This document shows positions 34,688 to 41,658 of a stretch of DNA of 42,805 nt, in pieces. The translations under genes and the position numbers were made by a program. Below the pieces are notes generated by a model, which was given only the letters and a program-made list of their open reading frames with translations, was not told the origin of the DNA and searched no databases. The DNA comes from a virus: IMG/VR virus record IMGVR_UViG_3300049794_000013, positions 1-42,805 of that record; one strand, given 5' to 3'. Position 1 is the first letter of the stretch; every line of letters starts with the position of its first letter.

Positions 34688-35088
34688 GCCGCCGCTGTTG
34701 GCTCAGTACTCACTGGCGGCATGACCGGTGCGGGCTTATTGCCCACGTCCGACGGGCCAGCCTTCGCTGCTTTGATGCGCTTGCTGGCGGTCACGATCTT
34801 GAGCGGCTGGCTCGGCGCGGGCACCACGTCGGTCTGCGCTGAGTGGTACTTGACGACGGCTGCAATCAGCGCGACAACGAACGGCAGGAAGACCTGACTG
34901 CGTATCTGCTCCCAGAAGTTCGTGCCGGTGCCACTCAACGCCGCATAGATCGTCGGCAGGTTCAAGAGCAGCCAGCCCCCCATCGAGAAGCTGAGATACT
35001 GCCAGAACTTATAGTTGGCGCGCTCCCAGGGGGTCATGGTCTGGCCGTCGGCAGCCATGGCAAACAGAGAGAATGGATAGATGTTCAT
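34684..35088 (-). CDS. Holin-like membrane protein (134 aa)
   Basis: Two hydrophobic segments, about residues 34-51 (LSFSMGGWLLLNLPTIYAAL) and 66-80 (VFLPFVVALIAAVV), are joined by a polar loop and followed by a basic, Pro-rich tail (ASKRIKAAKAG). This is the class II holin layout. Its ATG overlaps the stop of the upstream endolysin gene. The two would be co-transcribed leftward, so holin pore timing and endolysin release are coupled. Confidence 0.74.
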   Translation of the reverse strand: MNIYPFSLFAMAADGQTMTPWERANYKFWQYLSFSMGGWLLLNLPTIYAALSGTGTNFWEQIRSQVFLPFVVALIAAVVKYHSAQTDVVPAPSQPLKIVTASKRIKAAKAGPSDVGNKPAPVMPPVSTEPTAAA

Positions 35089-36074
35089 GCGGCCGCCTCC
35101 ACTAAGAGCGCGCGCAGCCCCTTGCCGAGCGCCGCATCCTTCGCCGTCTGCGGGTCCACTGTCGGCGTCGTCTCGCCCGCTTCCTCTGCCGCGTTAGCGG
35201 CCTTGAGTGCGGCAATCTGCGCTTCCAGGTTCGTATTCAGCGCCGGCCAGTTTGGCCCCACGACCTCGTTGGCCGCTGTCTGGCCCCACACGAGGGACAG
35301 CGCGAAGTCCTGCCGTGCCGGGGTGCCGTACTCGCCAGTGAGCGGCATGAGCGCCGCAGGCCACGCGGCGGCATCGAGGATGTGCTGGCGGAAGCCATGC
35401 CCGACCGTCCCGCCATTGGGCGCGGTTAGCACGCCGTTCGCGTCTCTCCAGCCACCAGGTACGCCTGCCATGGGAATGCTCACTTTCGCTGCGAACGCCA
35501 GCGCCCCGCACGGTTGCGCGGCGGCTAGGATGGCGTCGGGGTAATACTGGAGCACGTCCCCAGCGGCGAAGTTGTCACCGTCCACTGCCCACCATCCCAC
35601 CGGTAGGTCACGACCTGCTCGTACGGAAAACCCGCCAGCGTGATAACCGACGATCCCGATAAAGTGGTAGTGGAGGTTTGTGGCGTTTTCGCCTTGTCCG
35701 CTGATGCTGTCTCGTAAGGCTTGTCCATTGGCCGTCTCCATAAGGATGTAGCTGTGGCCGGCGTGCGCCAGGTAGAACGCGCGCCAGCCGCTCACGCCAT
35801 CGGCCGGCCATGGCTCCCCATAGCCCCGGTAGGCGGTGAGCGGCATGCCCAGATTGCTGGCTTCTTGGTGCAGGGCATCGAGCGTGCTCGCGCCACTGGC
35901 CGCGCATAAGCCGCGCCGGTACATGTCGGTGTATACATCATATGTAGCGGGCTGACCGGCTTGTGTTGACCAGCGTACGCCCATGGAAAGCGCATTCGGG
36001 CCACATGCACCAGTCAGATTCCCGACGAACTCTGTCTCGCGATGGATAGCGCCGGGGAGGATAGATTCGGCCAT
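35085..36074 (-). CDS. Endolysin with papain/C39-like cysteine peptidase domain (329 aa)
   Basis: GACGPNALSM places a candidate catalytic Cys24, LHYHFIGIVGYHAGG gives a His at 137, and WWAVDGDN supplies a possible Asp/Asn partner, together the order Cys-His-Asp of papain-like peptidases that cut peptidoglycan stem or cross-bridge peptides. The C-terminal third is helical and Ala/Thr-rich, perhaps for wall contact. It lies beside a holin, which supports a lysis role. Export would depend on the holin; no signal peptide is seen. Confidence 0.78.
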   Translation of the reverse strand: MAESILPGAIHRETEFVGNLTGACGPNALSMGVRWSTQAGQPATYDVYTDMYRRGLCAASGASTLDALHQEASNLGMPLTAYRGYGEPWPADGVSGWRAFYLAHAGHSYILMETANGQALRDSISGQGENATNLHYHFIGIVGYHAGGFSVRAGRDLPVGWWAVDGDNFAAGDVLQYYPDAILAAAQPCGALAFAAKVSIPMAGVPGGWRDANGVLTAPNGGTVGHGFRQHILDAAAWPAALMPLTGEYGTPARQDFALSLVWGQTAANEVVGPNWPALNTNLEAQIAALKAANAAEEAGETTPTVDPQTAKDAALGKGLRALLVEAAA

Positions 36075-36429: not shown

Positions 36430-36661
36430 TGCGTCGCCTGCTCTCAATTCGCCGCTGCCTCGCCTCACTGTCGGCGTCATAACGGCGCTGCCACTCATCC
36501 ACGAGCCGATGCATTTCCGCCGCCGCCACGTAGATGGTGATGGTGCGTGCATTCGCGCCCTCAATCTCCCAATTGAGTTCGACAAGCAACTCGTGGAAGG
36601 TTGCGGTTAGCCGCGCCCCTGGCTCGCCGCCCAGCACGAGCACATCATCTTCATCCCTCAC
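36419..36661 (-). CDS. Hypothetical protein (80 aa, GTG start)
   Basis: GTG 36661 overlaps the upstream TGA (GTGA) and has GGAAGAGG 7 nt before it; the ATG at 36697 gives a longer overlap and no better site. The protein has a strand-rich start (DVLVLGGEPGARLTATFHEL) and a basic helix at the end (RRYDADSEARQRRIESRRRN). No family is recognised. Confidence 0.58.
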   Translation of the reverse strand: MRDEDDVLVLGGEPGARLTATFHELLVELNWEIEGANARTITIYVAAAEMHRLVDEWQRRYDADSEARQRRIESRRRNER

Positions 36662-37611
36662 TGTGCTACCTCTTCCCGCTGTCGGCTTTCTTGCCATGCA
36701 CTATACAACTCGTTGGCCGTGGTTTGCGCACAGTTCAGGATACCGCGTAACGCCTTCCGGCTCATGGTCGGGTCATGGTCCAGCGCGTCAAAGGCGGACG
36801 CCCGCAAGCCCGCTGCCCTAGCCCTCTTCCGAACGTTCTGCCGCTCGGCTGCCGTGGTGCGGCGTGGCATCAGGTGTAGGGCTGCTTGTGCGCTTGGCTC
36901 TACTGCTGCCGCGAGAGTGTCAGGAGCGATGTCAGTAGCGGGGCGGGAAGCGGCGGCAGGCGTACCCGGTCCCGTCGGTGGCGAATCGTGGTCATAATAT
37001 GACAACTTTTTGCCAAGCCCTGCGGCGGCCACGTCCCGCCAGCCCAGCGCCTTCCGCATCCGCACCTGTGCCCGCAACGGTTCAAGCGTCAATTCGCGTT
37101 CGAGTTTCGCTTGCTCATCAGCAATGGTGGCGGATTTAGGTGCGGCGTAGCGCAGGACACCGGATATCACCACGAGCGCAACGGCGAGTACGGATCGTTG
37201 AATGATCCACGTTGTCGAGTCCATGCCGAGCTGCGCCAGTGCCGCACTGGTAGTGATGCCTTCCGCTTGTTGTGTGGCGAATACCTGCGCCGCCACGAAG
37301 GCCACATAGGCGAGCGCTAGCACGAGTACGGCGTAGCCTGCCGCACGCCAAGGATGGCCCGTCTGTGCGGCCCGGCTCAGCTTCACACTTGAGCCGATGA
37401 GCTGCCCGTCCAGACCCACCGCCATTGCCACGGCCCAGCCATAGAGCAACCCCGGTTGCGTGGTGAGTAGCTTCCCATCGGTCATCAGTGAGATAAGGCC
37501 GACAAGGATACCACCGGTCAGCACAGGGCCAGAGCAGATCGTTAAGAACTCTTCCCACCAGTGAAAGAAGCCGGCGATAGCAGCCAGCATCGGCAGTTCG
37601 CGCTCGTTCAT
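36658..37611 (-). CDS. Multi-pass membrane protein with C-terminal helix-turn-helix-like region (317 aa)
   Basis: Residues 1-160 hold about four hydrophobic segments (ILVGLISLMT, LLYGWAVAMAVGLDGQLIGS, YAVLVLALAYVAFVAAQVFA, SVLAVALVVISGVLRYAA). A charged cytoplasmic linker follows, then from about 255 a basic region, TAAERQNVRKRARAAGL, and SRKALRGILNCAQTTANEL, resembling a helix-turn-helix. A membrane-tethered DNA-binding protein in a lysogeny-side operon could sense stress or anchor DNA. This is inference; no known family is claimed. Confidence 0.62.
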   Translation of the reverse strand: MNERELPMLAAIAGFFHWWEEFLTICSGPVLTGGILVGLISLMTDGKLLTTQPGLLYGWAVAMAVGLDGQLIGSSVKLSRAAQTGHPWRAAGYAVLVLALAYVAFVAAQVFATQQAEGITTSAALAQLGMDSTTWIIQRSVLAVALVVISGVLRYAAPKSATIADEQAKLERELTLEPLRAQVRMRKALGWRDVAAAGLGKKLSYYDHDSPPTGPGTPAAASRPATDIAPDTLAAAVEPSAQAALHLMPRRTTAAERQNVRKRARAAGLRASAFDALDHDPTMSRKALRGILNCAQTTANELYSAWQESRQREEVAQ

Positions 37612-37823
37612 GGCGCGCCCCCTAGCGCCGGCTCAGGGATGAGGTAGGCGTAGTGGTGTTCTGGCAGACGGTCGGCGGCGTGCCTCAGAAGATGCACTGC
37701 ACACCACTTAGGTGCCTGGAATGGCCCAAGCGTGTCGCACGTCGCACACCAGCCATCAATCGGTTCGTCACAGTCGGGTACGCTGCATAATCCGCGCTCG
37801 CGCTGGCGTTGTTCACGGTCCAT
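37608..37823 (-). CDS. Small B-box/CxxC zinc-binding protein (71 aa), first gene of the operon
   Basis: The protein has GLCSVPDCDEPIDGWCATCD and WCAVHLLRHA, a C-x4-C...C-x2-C...C-x2-H pattern like B-box or LIM-type zinc fingers. AGGAGG (minus strand 37837-37832) is 8 nt from ATG 37823 and lies inside the 3' arm of a terminator-like hairpin. It overlaps the membrane-protein start by 4 nt. Confidence 0.68.
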   Translation of the reverse strand: MDREQRQRERGLCSVPDCDEPIDGWCATCDTLGPFQAPKWCAVHLLRHAADRLPEHHYAYLIPEPALGGAP

Positions 37824-37824
37824 G

Positions 37825-37849
37825 AAAAAAGCCTCCTGGGGATGGAGGC
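37825..37849 (-). terminator. Intrinsic-terminator-like hairpin that includes the operon's Shine-Dalgarno
   Basis: On the minus strand GCCTCC-ATCCCCA-GGAGGC is followed at once by six T residues and then C-ATG. The 6-bp GC stem plus U6 is a valid Rho-independent terminator, and the 3' arm is the AGGAGG used to translate the gene at 37823. It could stop transcription or block translation unless something opens it. Confidence 0.75.
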
Positions 37850-38010
37850 AGGGCTTGTGCGGTCGCCAGCACTTAGGTACACTGGCTCTCAGACCCGCCC
37901 TGCGAACTCAGGGTTGGTTTAGCGGGCGGTCGGTGCTGATAACACCGGCCCACCCGCGCACTACAAACACGCTGCGACGATGGCAGATGCGGGGCGCTCT
38001 CGTGAAGCTT
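37850..38010 (-). ncRNA. Structured 5' leader of the membrane/HTH operon
   Basis: From the promoter near 38017 to the start at 37823 lies about 185 nt without a gene. It contains three hairpins before the terminator-like one: 37922-37957 (long GCGGG...CCCGC stem with inner CGGTG/CACCG), 37898-37913 (CCCTG/CAGGG) and 37865-37886 (GCCAG/CTGGC). It resembles a riboswitch or attenuator in layout, but the sequence does not match a known riboswitch consensus that I can identify. Confidence 0.5.
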
Positions 38011-38016
38011 GCCCCC

Positions 38017-38025
38017 AGTATACCA
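38017..38025 (-). promoter_or_regulatory. Extended -10 promoter for the membrane/HTH operon
   Basis: On the minus strand the run is TATGG-TATACT, giving TGn and a perfect -10 (38022-38017). No -35 match lies 17 nt upstream. Transcription would begin near 38010, about 185 nt before the first gene. Confidence 0.58.
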
Positions 38026-38493
38026 TAGCGCCGCGGCGTGGCTGTGCGGCGGTGGGAAGGGTGGGGGCACTCGAATGGTATTTGCTGCCAACCAGCAGAT
38101 GCGGCGCTCTGACGATTCCCTGCAATTCCGCCTTTTGCTACGCAACAGACAGCAGGATATACTGCCGTTAGCATTCCAGTCTCCCCCTGTCCGCACCGCC
38201 CGTCACCCCCCATAATTCCCGGCTTCGTGGCGCCTTTGTCATCTTCGGCCCGGTGCCACCTGAGACCACTGGAATGCTTTTTCCGTTCTTGTGTACATCC
38301 CGGCTGGTCCTGCACTTCTTGTGTCCTGTGTTATGCTTGCCGTCACAGCAAGACGGCTGCATTAATAACGTTCCAGTTTCGACATTTCACCCGCGCAATG
38401 CACTTGACATTGAGTAGCAGGAACCGCTGAAAGAAAGGCAGCGGCGGGCCACCCGGTGGTGGCACCTAGTAGTAGGAAGCGAGTCACAAGGAC
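38026..38493 (+). other. Intergenic region upstream of integrase with repeated TTCCAGT sites (possible attP side)
   Basis: No convincing gene is present in about 470 bp. GCATTCCAGT is found at 38171-38180 and inverted at 38268-38277, and TTCCAGT again at 38371-38377. The short minus-strand frame 38168-38362 has no ribosome site and is rejected. TTGACA at 38404-38409 lacks a good -10. The position beside the integrase makes it the likely side of an attachment site, although a core cannot be set without the host junctions. Confidence 0.4.
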
Positions 38494-39465
38494 ATGCGTA
38501 CTCGGTTACCCACACCACTCGCGCGTACCCGCACCTCGCGTACCCAAGCTGGCCCCGCACTGCTTGACCTGGCGGATAGTTACCGCCTACGTCTGCGCGC
38601 CACCAGGAAAAGCCCGCAAACTATCCGGTCGTATATCAGTGTCCTGCATACGCTTACGGACTTCCTAACCGAGCACGGATTATCGTGCGACATCACGCGT
38701 ATCGGGCCAGGGCACATCGAGACGTTCATGGCGGACCAGCTTGAGCGGTTGACGCCTGGCACCGCATCGGCACGCTACGGTTGGCTGCATGTGTTTTTCC
38801 GCTGGTGCGTCGAAGTCGGTGAGCTGGAAGCGGATCCAATGGCGCATATGCATAAGCCGCCGACACCTGACACGCCGCCGCCCATTCCGTCAGTGGAAGA
38901 CTTGAAGCGCCTGCTGCACACCTGCGCTGGACGGGGCAACGACGCGCAGGAGGCATACCACAACCGGCGCGACCTGGCTATTTTCTATCTGCTACTGGAC
39001 ACCGGCATGCGCCGCAGTGAAGTGTGCCGACTGACGTGGGATGACGTGGACATGACCAGCGGGCGCGTCACCATCATTGGCAAGCGGGCTAACGGCCAGG
39101 ACAGGACACGCTACGGGCGGCTGGGCATGGCGTCACTCTCAGCACTTGACGCCTACAAACGGTACCGCCGTGGGCACAAGTACGCGAGCCTGCCGAACAT
39201 CTTCCTGGCCCAGCGCGGCGCACTCACCGGCCAGGGCGTCTATGACATCGTGCGTCGTCGTGCGGAACAGGCGGGGCTTGACTTACGACCGCATAGGTTC
39301 CGCCACTACTTCGCCCATGCCTGGCTCGCCGCTGGCGGCAGTGAGGGCGGCTTACGGGCGCTGGGCGGCTGGCGTAGTGACGTGATGAGGCGCTACGGGG
39401 CATCCCTGGCGAGTGAGCGCGCGCTTTCGGAACACGAGCGCTTGGCGCCAGGAGATCGTCTCTAG
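38494..39465 (+). CDS. int: Tyrosine-family site-specific integrase (323 aa)
   Basis: An N-terminal SAM-like DNA-binding domain (SYRLRLRATRKSPQTIRSY) precedes the catalytic domain. Key residues can be followed: Arg173 in TGMRRSE, His267-x-x-Arg270 in HRFRH, Trp293 in GGWRSD in place of the usual second His, and the nucleophile Tyr301 in RRYGA. All active-site positions needed for strand exchange are present. It supports a temperate lifestyle. The gene ends 3 nt before a converging minus-strand gene. Confidence 0.93.
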   Translation: MRTRLPTPLARTRTSRTQAGPALLDLADSYRLRLRATRKSPQTIRSYISVLHTLTDFLTEHGLSCDITRIGPGHIETFMADQLERLTPGTASARYGWLHVFFRWCVEVGELEADPMAHMHKPPTPDTPPPIPSVEDLKRLLHTCAGRGNDAQEAYHNRRDLAIFYLLLDTGMRRSEVCRLTWDDVDMTSGRVTIIGKRANGQDRTRYGRLGMASLSALDAYKRYRRGHKYASLPNIFLAQRGALTGQGVYDIVRRRAEQAGLDLRPHRFRHYFAHAWLAAGGSEGGLRALGGWRSDVMRRYGASLASERALSEHERLAPGDRL

Positions 39466-39468
39466 CGG

Positions 39469-39675
39469 TCAGTTTCCGAGCAGGGCACGGGCTTTCTGCT
39501 GCAATGTCCAGTGCTCAGAGAGCCAGATACCATCGGCTGCGAGCACGCGCCCAATCTCGCGCCATGCTTCTACTTCCGCGAGCAGCGCCGTATTTTCTGT
39601 TTTCGCTTCCCGCAAGCGTTCGGGCAGTGACTTGTAGCCTTCGGGGATGATGTCGTAATAGTCCTCATCGCTCAT
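39469..39675 (-). CDS. Small coiled-coil protein (68 aa)
   Basis: I start it at the minus-strand ATG 39675 (MSDEDYYDIIPEGYK); the longer frame uses a TTG at 39816. The helical core ERLREAKTENTALLAEVEAW and end LQQKARALLGN resemble the C-terminal parts of the neighbour at 39847-40197 (EVERLRGW; VKARALL). The two may be paralogues or share a domain. Function unknown. Confidence 0.58.
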   Translation of the reverse strand: MSDEDYYDIIPEGYKSLPERLREAKTENTALLAEVEAWREIGRVLAADGIWLSEHWTLQQKARALLGN

Positions 39676-39850
39676 TGTCTTGTGTACGCTTTCTTGTCTT
39701 GTGCCGTGTCGCTTCGGTTGCAATGCGGTGGCGATTCCAGACTGGAATGAGTAGACGCTTGTTACCCGTTCCAGTCTCGGTAACTGTGCGTACGCCGCAT
39801 CGTCTGAATCTCGCAAGGAAAGCGAGGTGCAGCGATGCAGTCACGGTCAC
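39665..39850 (-). CDS. Doubtful small basic protein (61 aa)
   Basis: A frame from GTG 39850 overlaps the upstream stop as GTGA and ends at 39665, 11 nt inside the next gene, so its packing fits this genome. The product is basic (RHKTRKRTQDNER) with no recognised motif and ordinary codon use. It also covers the palindrome ATTCCAG-A-CTGGAAT that may be an integrase site, so it could instead be non-coding. Confidence 0.3.
   Translation of the reverse strand: MTVTASLHLAFLARFRRCGVRTVTETGTGNKRLLIPVWNRHRIATEATRHKTRKRTQDNER
39734..39778 (+). repeat. TTCCAGT-type sites downstream of the integrase gene
   Basis: ATTCCAG-A-CTGGAAT is a perfect 15-bp palindrome at 39734-39748 and TTCCAGTCTC lies at 39769-39778. 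Both match the sites before the integrase (38174, 38268, 38371). Such motifs around an integrase gene suit binding sites for integrase or excisionase. Confidence 0.5.
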
Positions 39851-40197
39851 GACTCACTGGCGAGCAGCGCGCGGGCCTTCACGACGATGCAGTCGGGCAA
39901 ATGCTGAATGACTGCGGGATGCTTGGCAATCTTGTCGCAAAAGGCGCAGGCGTATTCCTGGCCGTCGATATACCAGGCACGGTCTGCCGTCTCTCGTGCA
40001 ACCTCCCGCAGCGTCGCGTTCTCACGTTCCAGCGCAAGCTGATTCGCCAGGTGCTCTTCTGCTATGGCACGCCAGCCGCGCAGCCGCTCCACTTCCGCAT
40101 GAAGCGCTTCCAAGCGTCCCAGCGCCGCCCACACAATATGCACATTCTCTCCAGTCGCCAGGGCTGCCAACCCAGTCGCTATCTCTTCATCCGTCAT
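39847..40197 (-). CDS. Coiled-coil protein with a C-C-H-C zinc site (116 aa)
   Basis: The N-terminal two-thirds are helical (LGRLEALHAEVERLRGWRAI, then ERENATLREVARETA). The C-terminal third has CAFCDKIAKHPAVIQHLPDC, a C-x2-C...H...C arrangement that likely binds zinc, and ends VKARALLASES. AAGGGGAC is just upstream of the ATG. It is of the size and style of small phage regulators or modulators, but no family is recognised. Confidence 0.62.
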   Translation of the reverse strand: MTDEEIATGLAALATGENVHIVWAALGRLEALHAEVERLRGWRAIAEEHLANQLALERENATLREVARETADRAWYIDGQEYACAFCDKIAKHPAVIQHLPDCIVVKARALLASES

Positions 40198-40206
40198 GCC
40201 GTCCCC

Positions 40207-40761
40207 TTACTGGTAACGCTGCACATCCATGATCCACTGGATACTATCGGCCTGCACGCGCAGGTAGACAGTGGCGCCGTCCTGCTGCACCGTGTAGGTG
40301 TCTTTGCCGCACGGCTGATTCGCGCGGTCCACCAGTTCCGCATACGGCAGATCGTTCCCGTAGGTCTCGCCCTTCAGGTACAGGTCGGCGATGAACAGGT
40401 TGGCGCTGTCACTCGCCGTGCAGTTCGTCAGGATGTGGTCACCGGTCCGCACGTCAAACGTGTCCGACTGACTGTTCCCGCTGCCAGCCAGGTGCTTGAC
40501 TGTCACCCACGCCTTCGGCTTGGCGGTGGCCGTCGGCAATGCCTGGGTCGCCGTGTCAGCGGGGGCCGCTTGTGTAACAGTACTTTGAGTCGACGCTGCT
40601 GCTTGCTGGCTGGGCGACGTGCTGCCGACGGTGTAGCCGAAGCTACAGCAGCCGCAGCCGATGAGCAACGCGCCGACACCCAGGCCGATACGCGCCGCGC
40701 GGGATTGTCGCGTGAGAAATGCCCAACTGCGGGCCGTGAACTGTTTCAATCGCTGAATCAT
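40207..40761 (-). CDS. Membrane-anchored or secreted protein (184 aa)
   Basis: The chosen ATG 40761 follows AAGGAAA by 6 nt; a longer frame starts at 40782. A basic start (RLKQFTARSWAFLTRQSRAA) is followed by a hydrophobic segment IGLGVGALLIGCGCCSFGYT, then a Ser/Thr/Ala-rich stretch (AASTQSTVTQAAPADTATQA) and a folded-looking C-terminal domain (TYTVQQDGATVYLRVQADSI). It is probably anchored by one helix, with the bulk outside. In a lysogeny block this suggests an immunity or conversion factor; that is inference. Confidence 0.66.
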   Translation of the reverse strand: MIQRLKQFTARSWAFLTRQSRAARIGLGVGALLIGCGCCSFGYTVGSTSPSQQAAASTQSTVTQAAPADTATQALPTATAKPKAWVTVKHLAGSGNSQSDTFDVRTGDHILTNCTASDSANLFIADLYLKGETYGNDLPYAELVDRANQPCGKDTYTVQQDGATVYLRVQADSIQWIMDVQRYQ

Positions 40762-40832
40762 GCTGATTTTCCTTCTATACACTCTGCCAGCTATCCATTA
40801 GACTGGCGGTTGGGTATCCCCGTCCGGTTTTG

Positions 40833-41048
40833 TCAGGCTGCGACGGGGACGCCTTTTTTCTTGGCACGTGCCTCTGCTAGCACCGCATTCGCATCTTCAC
40901 GCCTCACCAGTTTGATGCGCTTGTCGAATGGGTTCTCTTCCGTCTTCACGATGCCATCCCGAATAAGCTGCGCCATCTTGCCCTTACTTACCCCCATTTC
41001 TGCGCGCAGCTCCGCAATGGTCAGATACTCCTCTCGCATGCTTGCCAT
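40833..41048 (-). CDS. MerR/excisionase-like helix-turn-helix protein, second copy (71 aa)
   Basis: YLTIAELRAEMGVSKGKMAQ followed by a wing with KRIKLVRREDANAVLAEARA is the same HTH pattern as the protein at 5188-5364. ATG 41048 is used because GAGG is 8 nt upstream; ATG 41081 lies further up with only an AAGCGAG-type site. It faces the twin-promoter region across a divergent intergenic space, so it is the best candidate to bind the TTGGTCC boxes there. Confidence 0.76.
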   Translation of the reverse strand: MASMREEYLTIAELRAEMGVSKGKMAQLIRDGIVKTEENPFDKRIKLVRREDANAVLAEARAKKKGVPVAA

Positions 41049-41109
41049 CGTCTGTGCCTCGCCTCCTGTGGACCTGCTCATGTCTCGCTTAGAACTGTCT
41101 CGTACCTAT

Positions 41110-41150: not shown

Positions 41151-41231
41151 ATTGGTCCTATTGAGTCTTGACATGTGCCGCTAGATAGTCTATACTGATT
41201 CATAGAGATACACGATAGGTACACGAAAGGG
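41151..41231 (+). repeat. 81-bp promoter module, copy 1
   Basis: This block (from ATTGGTCC to ACGAAAGGG) is nearly identical in length and layout to 41578-41658: TTGGTCC box, TTGACA-17-TATACT promoter, and a shared GAGATAC...GATAGGTACACGAAAGGG leader with the ribosome site. The modules differ mainly in the spacer and in the bases just after the -10. Confidence 0.85.
41168..41196 (+). promoter_or_regulatory. Consensus sigma70 promoter before the 41242 gene
   Basis: TTGACA 41168-41173 and TATACT 41191-41196 with a 17-nt spacer, the optimal arrangement. Transcription would start about 38 nt before ATG 41242. TTGGTCC boxes at 41141 and 41152 are placed to repress or activate it. Confidence 0.85.
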
Positions 41232-41577: not shown

Positions 41578-41658
41578 ATTGGTCCTATTAGGTCTTGACA
41601 TTCAGTGCTACATAGTCTATACTAGTCTATAGAGATACGAGATAGGTACACGAAAGGG
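41578..41658 (+). repeat. 81-bp promoter module, copy 2
   Basis: Second copy of the 41151-41231 module, with the same length and layout and many exact stretches (ATTGGTCCTATT, GTCTTGACA, ATAGTCTATACT, GATAGGTACACGAAAGGG). It stands before the zinc-ribbon gene at 41667. Confidence 0.85.
41595..41623 (+). promoter_or_regulatory. Consensus sigma70 promoter before the 41667 gene
   Basis: TTGACA 41595-41600 and TATACT 41618-41623 have a 17-nt spacer. TTGGTCC lies at 41579-41585. It drives the operon that runs over the right edge and, if circular, into the early genes. Confidence 0.85.

Follow-up and report, generated by a model that had tools for sequence, protein, structure and literature searches.

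A predicted intrinsic terminator carrying a Shine-Dalgarno sequence closes a putative noncoding leader in an unclassified virus record

Genome context and features

Record IMGVR_UViG_3300049794_000013 of the IMG/VR virus collection is a single record of 42,805 bases with 61.6% G+C content, and the virus is unclassified. The whole record is called the window below. The plus strand encodes portal, capsid, and tail genes, assigned by PHROG matches, and open frames up to 34.7 kb. A minus-strand operon runs from 37.8 to 34.7 kb and is convergent with the plus-strand genes. The operon, its leader, and the neighboring features are listed in Table 1.

XerC and XerD models give the integrase its best score, approximately 110 bits, which is far under their cut-offs. 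The phage might therefore use a dif-like site. Among the products of the minus-strand group 41081–39469, upstream of the leader, is a protein of 82 aa that gives weak matches of the HTH type. Two near-consensus plus-strand promoters (TTGACA-17-TATACT, 41168–41196 and 41595–41623) share the same hexamers, with 427 bases between them. Each lies directly 5′ of a small plus-strand gene (41242 and 41667), and the minus-strand HTH-like gene at 40833–41081 is near the pair. The promoters and the HTH-like gene likely mark an immunity or early control region.

Table 1. Positions of the features described in the text; all positions are those of the window
Feature	Position	Strand	Remarks
Intrinsic terminator (predicted)	37825–37849	−	6-bp stem, 7-nt loop, U6
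Terminator 5′ arm	37849–37844	−	
Terminator loop	37843–37837	−	
Terminator 3′ arm	37836–37831	−	
Terminator U6	37830–37825	−	
Shine-Dalgarno AGGAGG	37832–37837	−	Loop end and 3′ arm; 8 nt 5′ of ATG
Leader, probably untranslated, ~186 nt	37824–38010	−	Predicted fold; reading frames without coding bias
Leader hairpin P2	37922–37957	−	15 pairs and internal bulge; predicted fold
Leader hairpin P3	37893–37918	−	CCCUG/CAGGG core 37913–37898; predicted fold
Leader hairpin P4	37865–37886	−	GCCAGUG/UGCUGGC; predicted fold
Candidate antiterminator helix	37903–37897 : 37854–37848	−	GCAGGGC:GCCCUGC, 7 bp; predicted fold
Extended -10 element	38017–38025	−	TGGTATACT; no recognizable -35; inferred start near 38010
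71-aa Cys-rich orphan protein	37608–37823	−	First operon gene; ORF; no TM helix
317-aa protein	36658–37611	−	Start overlaps 71-aa ORF stop (ATGA); 3–4 hydrophobic (TM) helices
329-aa orphan	35085–36074	−	GACGPNAL and GHSYIL stretches
Genes upstream of leader	40833–41081, 40207–40782, 39847–40197, 39469–39816	−	
Integrase	38494–39465	+	PF00589 at 2.3e-21; divergent from leader

Profile searches returned no significant family match for the operon products. Alignment-free AlphaFold models were of unusable quality, with a mean pLDDT of 50 for the 317-aa protein and 37 for the 329-aa protein. The codon score of the 71-aa ORF is slightly negative, so it is perhaps not a gene, in which case the Shine-Dalgarno (SD) reading given below would fall. 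As read from its sequence, the 71-aa protein has a Cys/His spacing (CSVPDC...WCATC...WCAVH) like that of small zinc-binding proteins. The 329-aa orphan is possibly a papain/C39-like cysteine peptidase, judging from the two stretches in Table 1. It is followed by a gene for a protein of 134 aa that has a single TM helix, and the two perhaps form a lysin and holin lysis pair on the strand opposite the structural genes. The first-pass annotation had named this a membrane/HTH operon. The 317-aa gene bears out the membrane part; the first gene lacks a TM helix, and no HTH was confirmed.

Relatives of the locus were sought at several levels. No relatives of the 71-, 317-, and 329-aa proteins or of the integrase were found in IMG/VR, and none of the 317-aa protein in the genomes, plasmids, and phages searched. 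The sole near relative found is a 4.3-kb contig whose major capsid protein is 76% identical and which does not include the leader region; no capsid relative was found in genomes. Searches of phage records with the leader DNA found no relative. Against all loci collected in the pattern scan described below, the leader DNA matched the terminator itself or gave chance matches alone. Rfam covariance models gave 0 matches to the leader at the gathering threshold. At E values up to 10, microRNA and lncRNA models alone matched, at chance level.

Leader and terminator

The leader was described earlier as 185 nt long, with three further hairpins, behind an extended -10 promoter. A length of ~186 nt from the inferred start agrees, and P2, P3, and P4 were predicted, together with a less certain hairpin at the 5′ end. 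The 3′ side of P3 doubles as one strand of the candidate antiterminator helix. The promoter held up in part: the extended -10 is present and makes a promoter plausible at this place, but a -35 is lacking and a 9-mer of this type occurs somewhere in 43% of whole-window shuffles. The leader fold is in mild excess over shuffles, with z −1.97 (213 nt) and z −1.5 when the terminator is left out.

Three other arrangements were considered and rejected. A leader peptide or ribosome-mediated attenuator was set aside because the leader has no ATG and its GTG frames have no coding bias. An upstream coding gene ended by the terminator was set aside because the nearest same-strand ORF that ends upstream, 37908–38315, has a negative codon score. 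Relief of the T4 type, by a promoter inside the 5′ arm, was set aside because no -10-like sequence was seen by eye at 37860–37844.

The minus strand from 37849 to 37821 reads GCCTCC-ATCCCCA-GGAGGC-TTTTTT-C-ATG, exactly as first annotated. After the U-tract come a C at 37824 and the ATG at 37823–37821, and the distance from stem to ATG is 7 nt. The 3′ arm was said to be also the AGGAGG of the first gene, and this is the case, with the first A (37837) being the final base of the loop and the remainder lying in the arm. This AGGAGG ranks among the better SD sequences in the window. The hairpin was also called a bona fide terminator. The stem, the U-tract, a d'Aubenton-Carafa-type score of +13.7 (above zero), and a calculated energy of −10.0 kcal/mol all fit that description, and its status is that of a predicted terminator. 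In the predicted ensemble of the complete leader, the stem forms with a probability of 0.93–0.99.

Terminators of this class were counted as a perfect 6-bp stem with at least 4 G/C, a loop of 3–8 nt, and at least 5 T directly after. There is 1 in the whole window on both strands, against 0.027 per dinucleotide shuffle, and the class followed by SD and ATG was met in 0 of 150 dinucleotide shuffles. The element is therefore above chance. Between the upstream minus-strand genes and the terminator there is just a weak terminator-like site, at 38454–38436.

Occurrence in other phages

IMG/VR was scanned with the pattern GCCTCC-N3-8-GGAGGC-T5-N0-5-ATG, which is present in at least 119 stretches. Among the matches listed, 51 sites have an ATG that starts an ORF of 50 aa or more, and they fall in 23 sequence clusters. 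Up to 22 clusters other than that of the window thus carry the element at an ORF start among the matches listed, a few of them with ORFs of 50–67 aa that are doubtful as genes. Some of the listed ORFs, as read from their translations, look like tail-fibre, small terminase subunit, scaffold, and Microviridae-type replication proteins. At most other listed sites the preceding gene stops 5–40 nt before the stem, so the arrangement is not specific to sensors. The collected loci also contain 32 unselected terminators, too few for a matched genome-wide rate, and none of these opens an ORF of 60 aa or longer. The scan matches suggest that SD-bearing terminators recur in unrelated phages.

A family of 13 loci (L010, L026, L043, L059, L071, L074, L080, L082, L087, L091, L103, L118, and L122) is kin to cyanophage S-CBS4 gp029, with the hairpin adjoining the start codon of a gene of ~136 aa and bearing the SD in its 3′ arm. 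Arms, U-tract, and ATG are kept across the family while loop and flank drift; conservation of the arms is not independent, as they belonged to the search pattern. The annotated homologue in Synechococcus phage S-CBS4 has a terminator-like hairpin in the same place with GGGGGC as 3′ arm and no canonical SD. This suggests that selection acts on the terminator and that the SD overlap is optional.

In the families L010/L026/L043, L009, L012, and L025, as in the window, GCCTCC-loop-GGAGGC-T5+-(0-5)-ATG opens ORFs. Those families sit after a coding gene, whereas the RNA upstream of the window hairpin is probably untranslated. Ribosomes finishing the preceding gene could override the terminator in the intergenic examples. 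No ribosome would do so in the window if the upstream RNA is untranslated. That the element closes a seemingly noncoding leader is the uncommon trait here.

Comparison with known systems

In the dual expression platforms of riboswitches, the 3′ side of the terminator hairpin contains the RBS, and a hairpin-to-start distance within 10 nt is used to call dual transcription and translation control (Barrick and Breaker 2007, PMC2258182). The window hairpin is alike in carrying its RBS in the 3′ side and, at 7 nt, falls inside the 10-nt rule. A known aptamer lies upstream in those platforms, whereas the window leader has no recognized aptamer. Naville and Gautheret 2010 (PMC2965389) described putative bifunctional 5′ terminators that would sequester the RBS, counted 18 candidate attenuators of Escherichia coli within less than 15 nt of the start codon, and wrote that no bifunctional terminator had been demonstrated by experiment by 2010. 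Those attenuators are chromosomal and the window element is in a virus record; both would sequester the RBS. The mean energy of 5′ terminators is −16.5 kcal (PMC2965389), and the window hairpin, at −10, is weaker, the two values coming from different protocols. A strong effect of distance from the gene has been reported for terminator tR2 (PMC4824070), which bears on the possible override of intergenic terminators by ribosomes. The literature searched contained nothing direct on phage terminators overlapping an RBS. The kind of element is already known as the dual expression platform; the window adds a new member, one found in a virus record and lacking a recognized sensor.

Proposed mechanism and alternatives

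We consider it probable, with moderate confidence, that the operon begins with an untranslated leader closed by a dual transcription/translation attenuator. The exact sequence, the predicted fold with its terminator score and 7-nt spacing, its scarcity in shuffles, and the same architecture at ORF starts in up to 22 other clusters, kept in place across the 13-locus family, speak for this reading. At 37825 polymerase would encounter an intrinsic terminator of modest strength, where some transcripts would stop as the ~186-nt leader. In read-through RNA, the GGAGGC arm would be paired in the 6-bp stem and initiation at the 71-aa gene would be reduced. The 317-aa gene, coupled through ATGA, would likewise be initiated less often. 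The strong SD at its 8-nt spacing would compensate in part. The net effect would be low basal expression, raised by whatever prevents closure of the stem, which may be an antiterminated polymerase, an RNA-binding protein, or the 7-bp helix of Table 1. Termination, occlusion of the SD in vivo, and the promoter at 38025–38017 are all three inferred.

The claim that one fold controls elongation and translation together stands as a prediction, because the stem forms with high probability in the predicted ensemble and contains the SD. Its riboswitch part is unsupported. The short stem and an energy weaker than the reported mean argue against a dual attenuator.

Instead of responding to a signal, the hairpin may act as a fixed damper or as an insulator; this is the simplest alternative, and a serious one. 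An insulator would block read-through from the minus-strand genes 41081–39469, which would otherwise run antisense through the integrase into the operon; the SD overlap would be sequence economy, and nothing would switch. Those genes are on the same strand with just the weak site at 38454–38436 between, the element mostly ends a preceding gene in other phages, and in S-CBS4 the terminator, not the SD overlap, seems to be kept. However, ~1.6 kb separates the last of these genes from the terminator, and a promoter-like site and hairpins in the leader itself would be needless for insulation. We regard insulation as unlikely, though it deserves some weight.

A signal-responsive leader is a more doubtful explanation. 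It would be a riboswitch, a protein-binding RNA, or a cis-acting antitermination RNA, with P2–P4 as sensor and exchange between P3 and the 7-bp helix as switch. The leader is structured (z −1.5 to −2), and the helix is the dominant fold, with a probability of 0.81, in a transcript lacking the terminator 3′ arm. It competes with the 3′ side of P3 and occupies the first two bases of the terminator 5′ arm, a geometry that suits an antiterminator. However, a helix of equal length occurs in 6.1% of shuffles and is not significant, the terminator is favored over it by 7.7 kcal/mol (ddG), and overall pairing of the 5′ arm does not exceed that of shuffled leaders, 37.5% of which reach the same level. 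The modeled helix is a lead only as an antiterminator. The leader has no Rfam match, and no relatives that could show covariation were found in the collections searched. The riboswitch analogy of the first-pass annotation is therefore unsupported: there is no Rfam match, leader-bearing relative, or leader peptide, and the fold is barely above that of shuffled leaders. The specific form of this explanation, a new class of phage leader RNA that joins P2–P4 to the dual terminator/SD platform, with P3 against the 7-bp helix as the switch, is slightly more doubtful again. The same low likelihood attaches to its further element, control of a minus-strand operon of orphan zinc-finger-like and membrane proteins.

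The terminated leader might be made for its own sake, as a ~186-nt phage small RNA, and only rare read-through would then express the operon. A promoter-like site, several hairpins, and a terminator are what a small RNA gene would have, but Rfam has no match, no related sequence was found, and the AGGAGG-8-ATG spacing would be left without a reason. We hold this to be very improbable. Least credible is a chance hairpin-like run that neither terminates transcription nor limits translation, which the short stem and weak consensus promoter would allow but the scarcity of such terminators in shuffled windows, and their absence with SD and ATG, argue against.

If the dual attenuator is real, a single 6-bp hairpin would govern polymerase escape into a phage operon as well as the access of ribosomes to it, which is a minimal means of holding genes low until the hairpin opens. 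SD-bearing terminators would be missed by annotation and by expression models in which a terminator and a ribosome site count as distinct elements. The wider phage pattern of such terminators is of more interest than the single case in the window.
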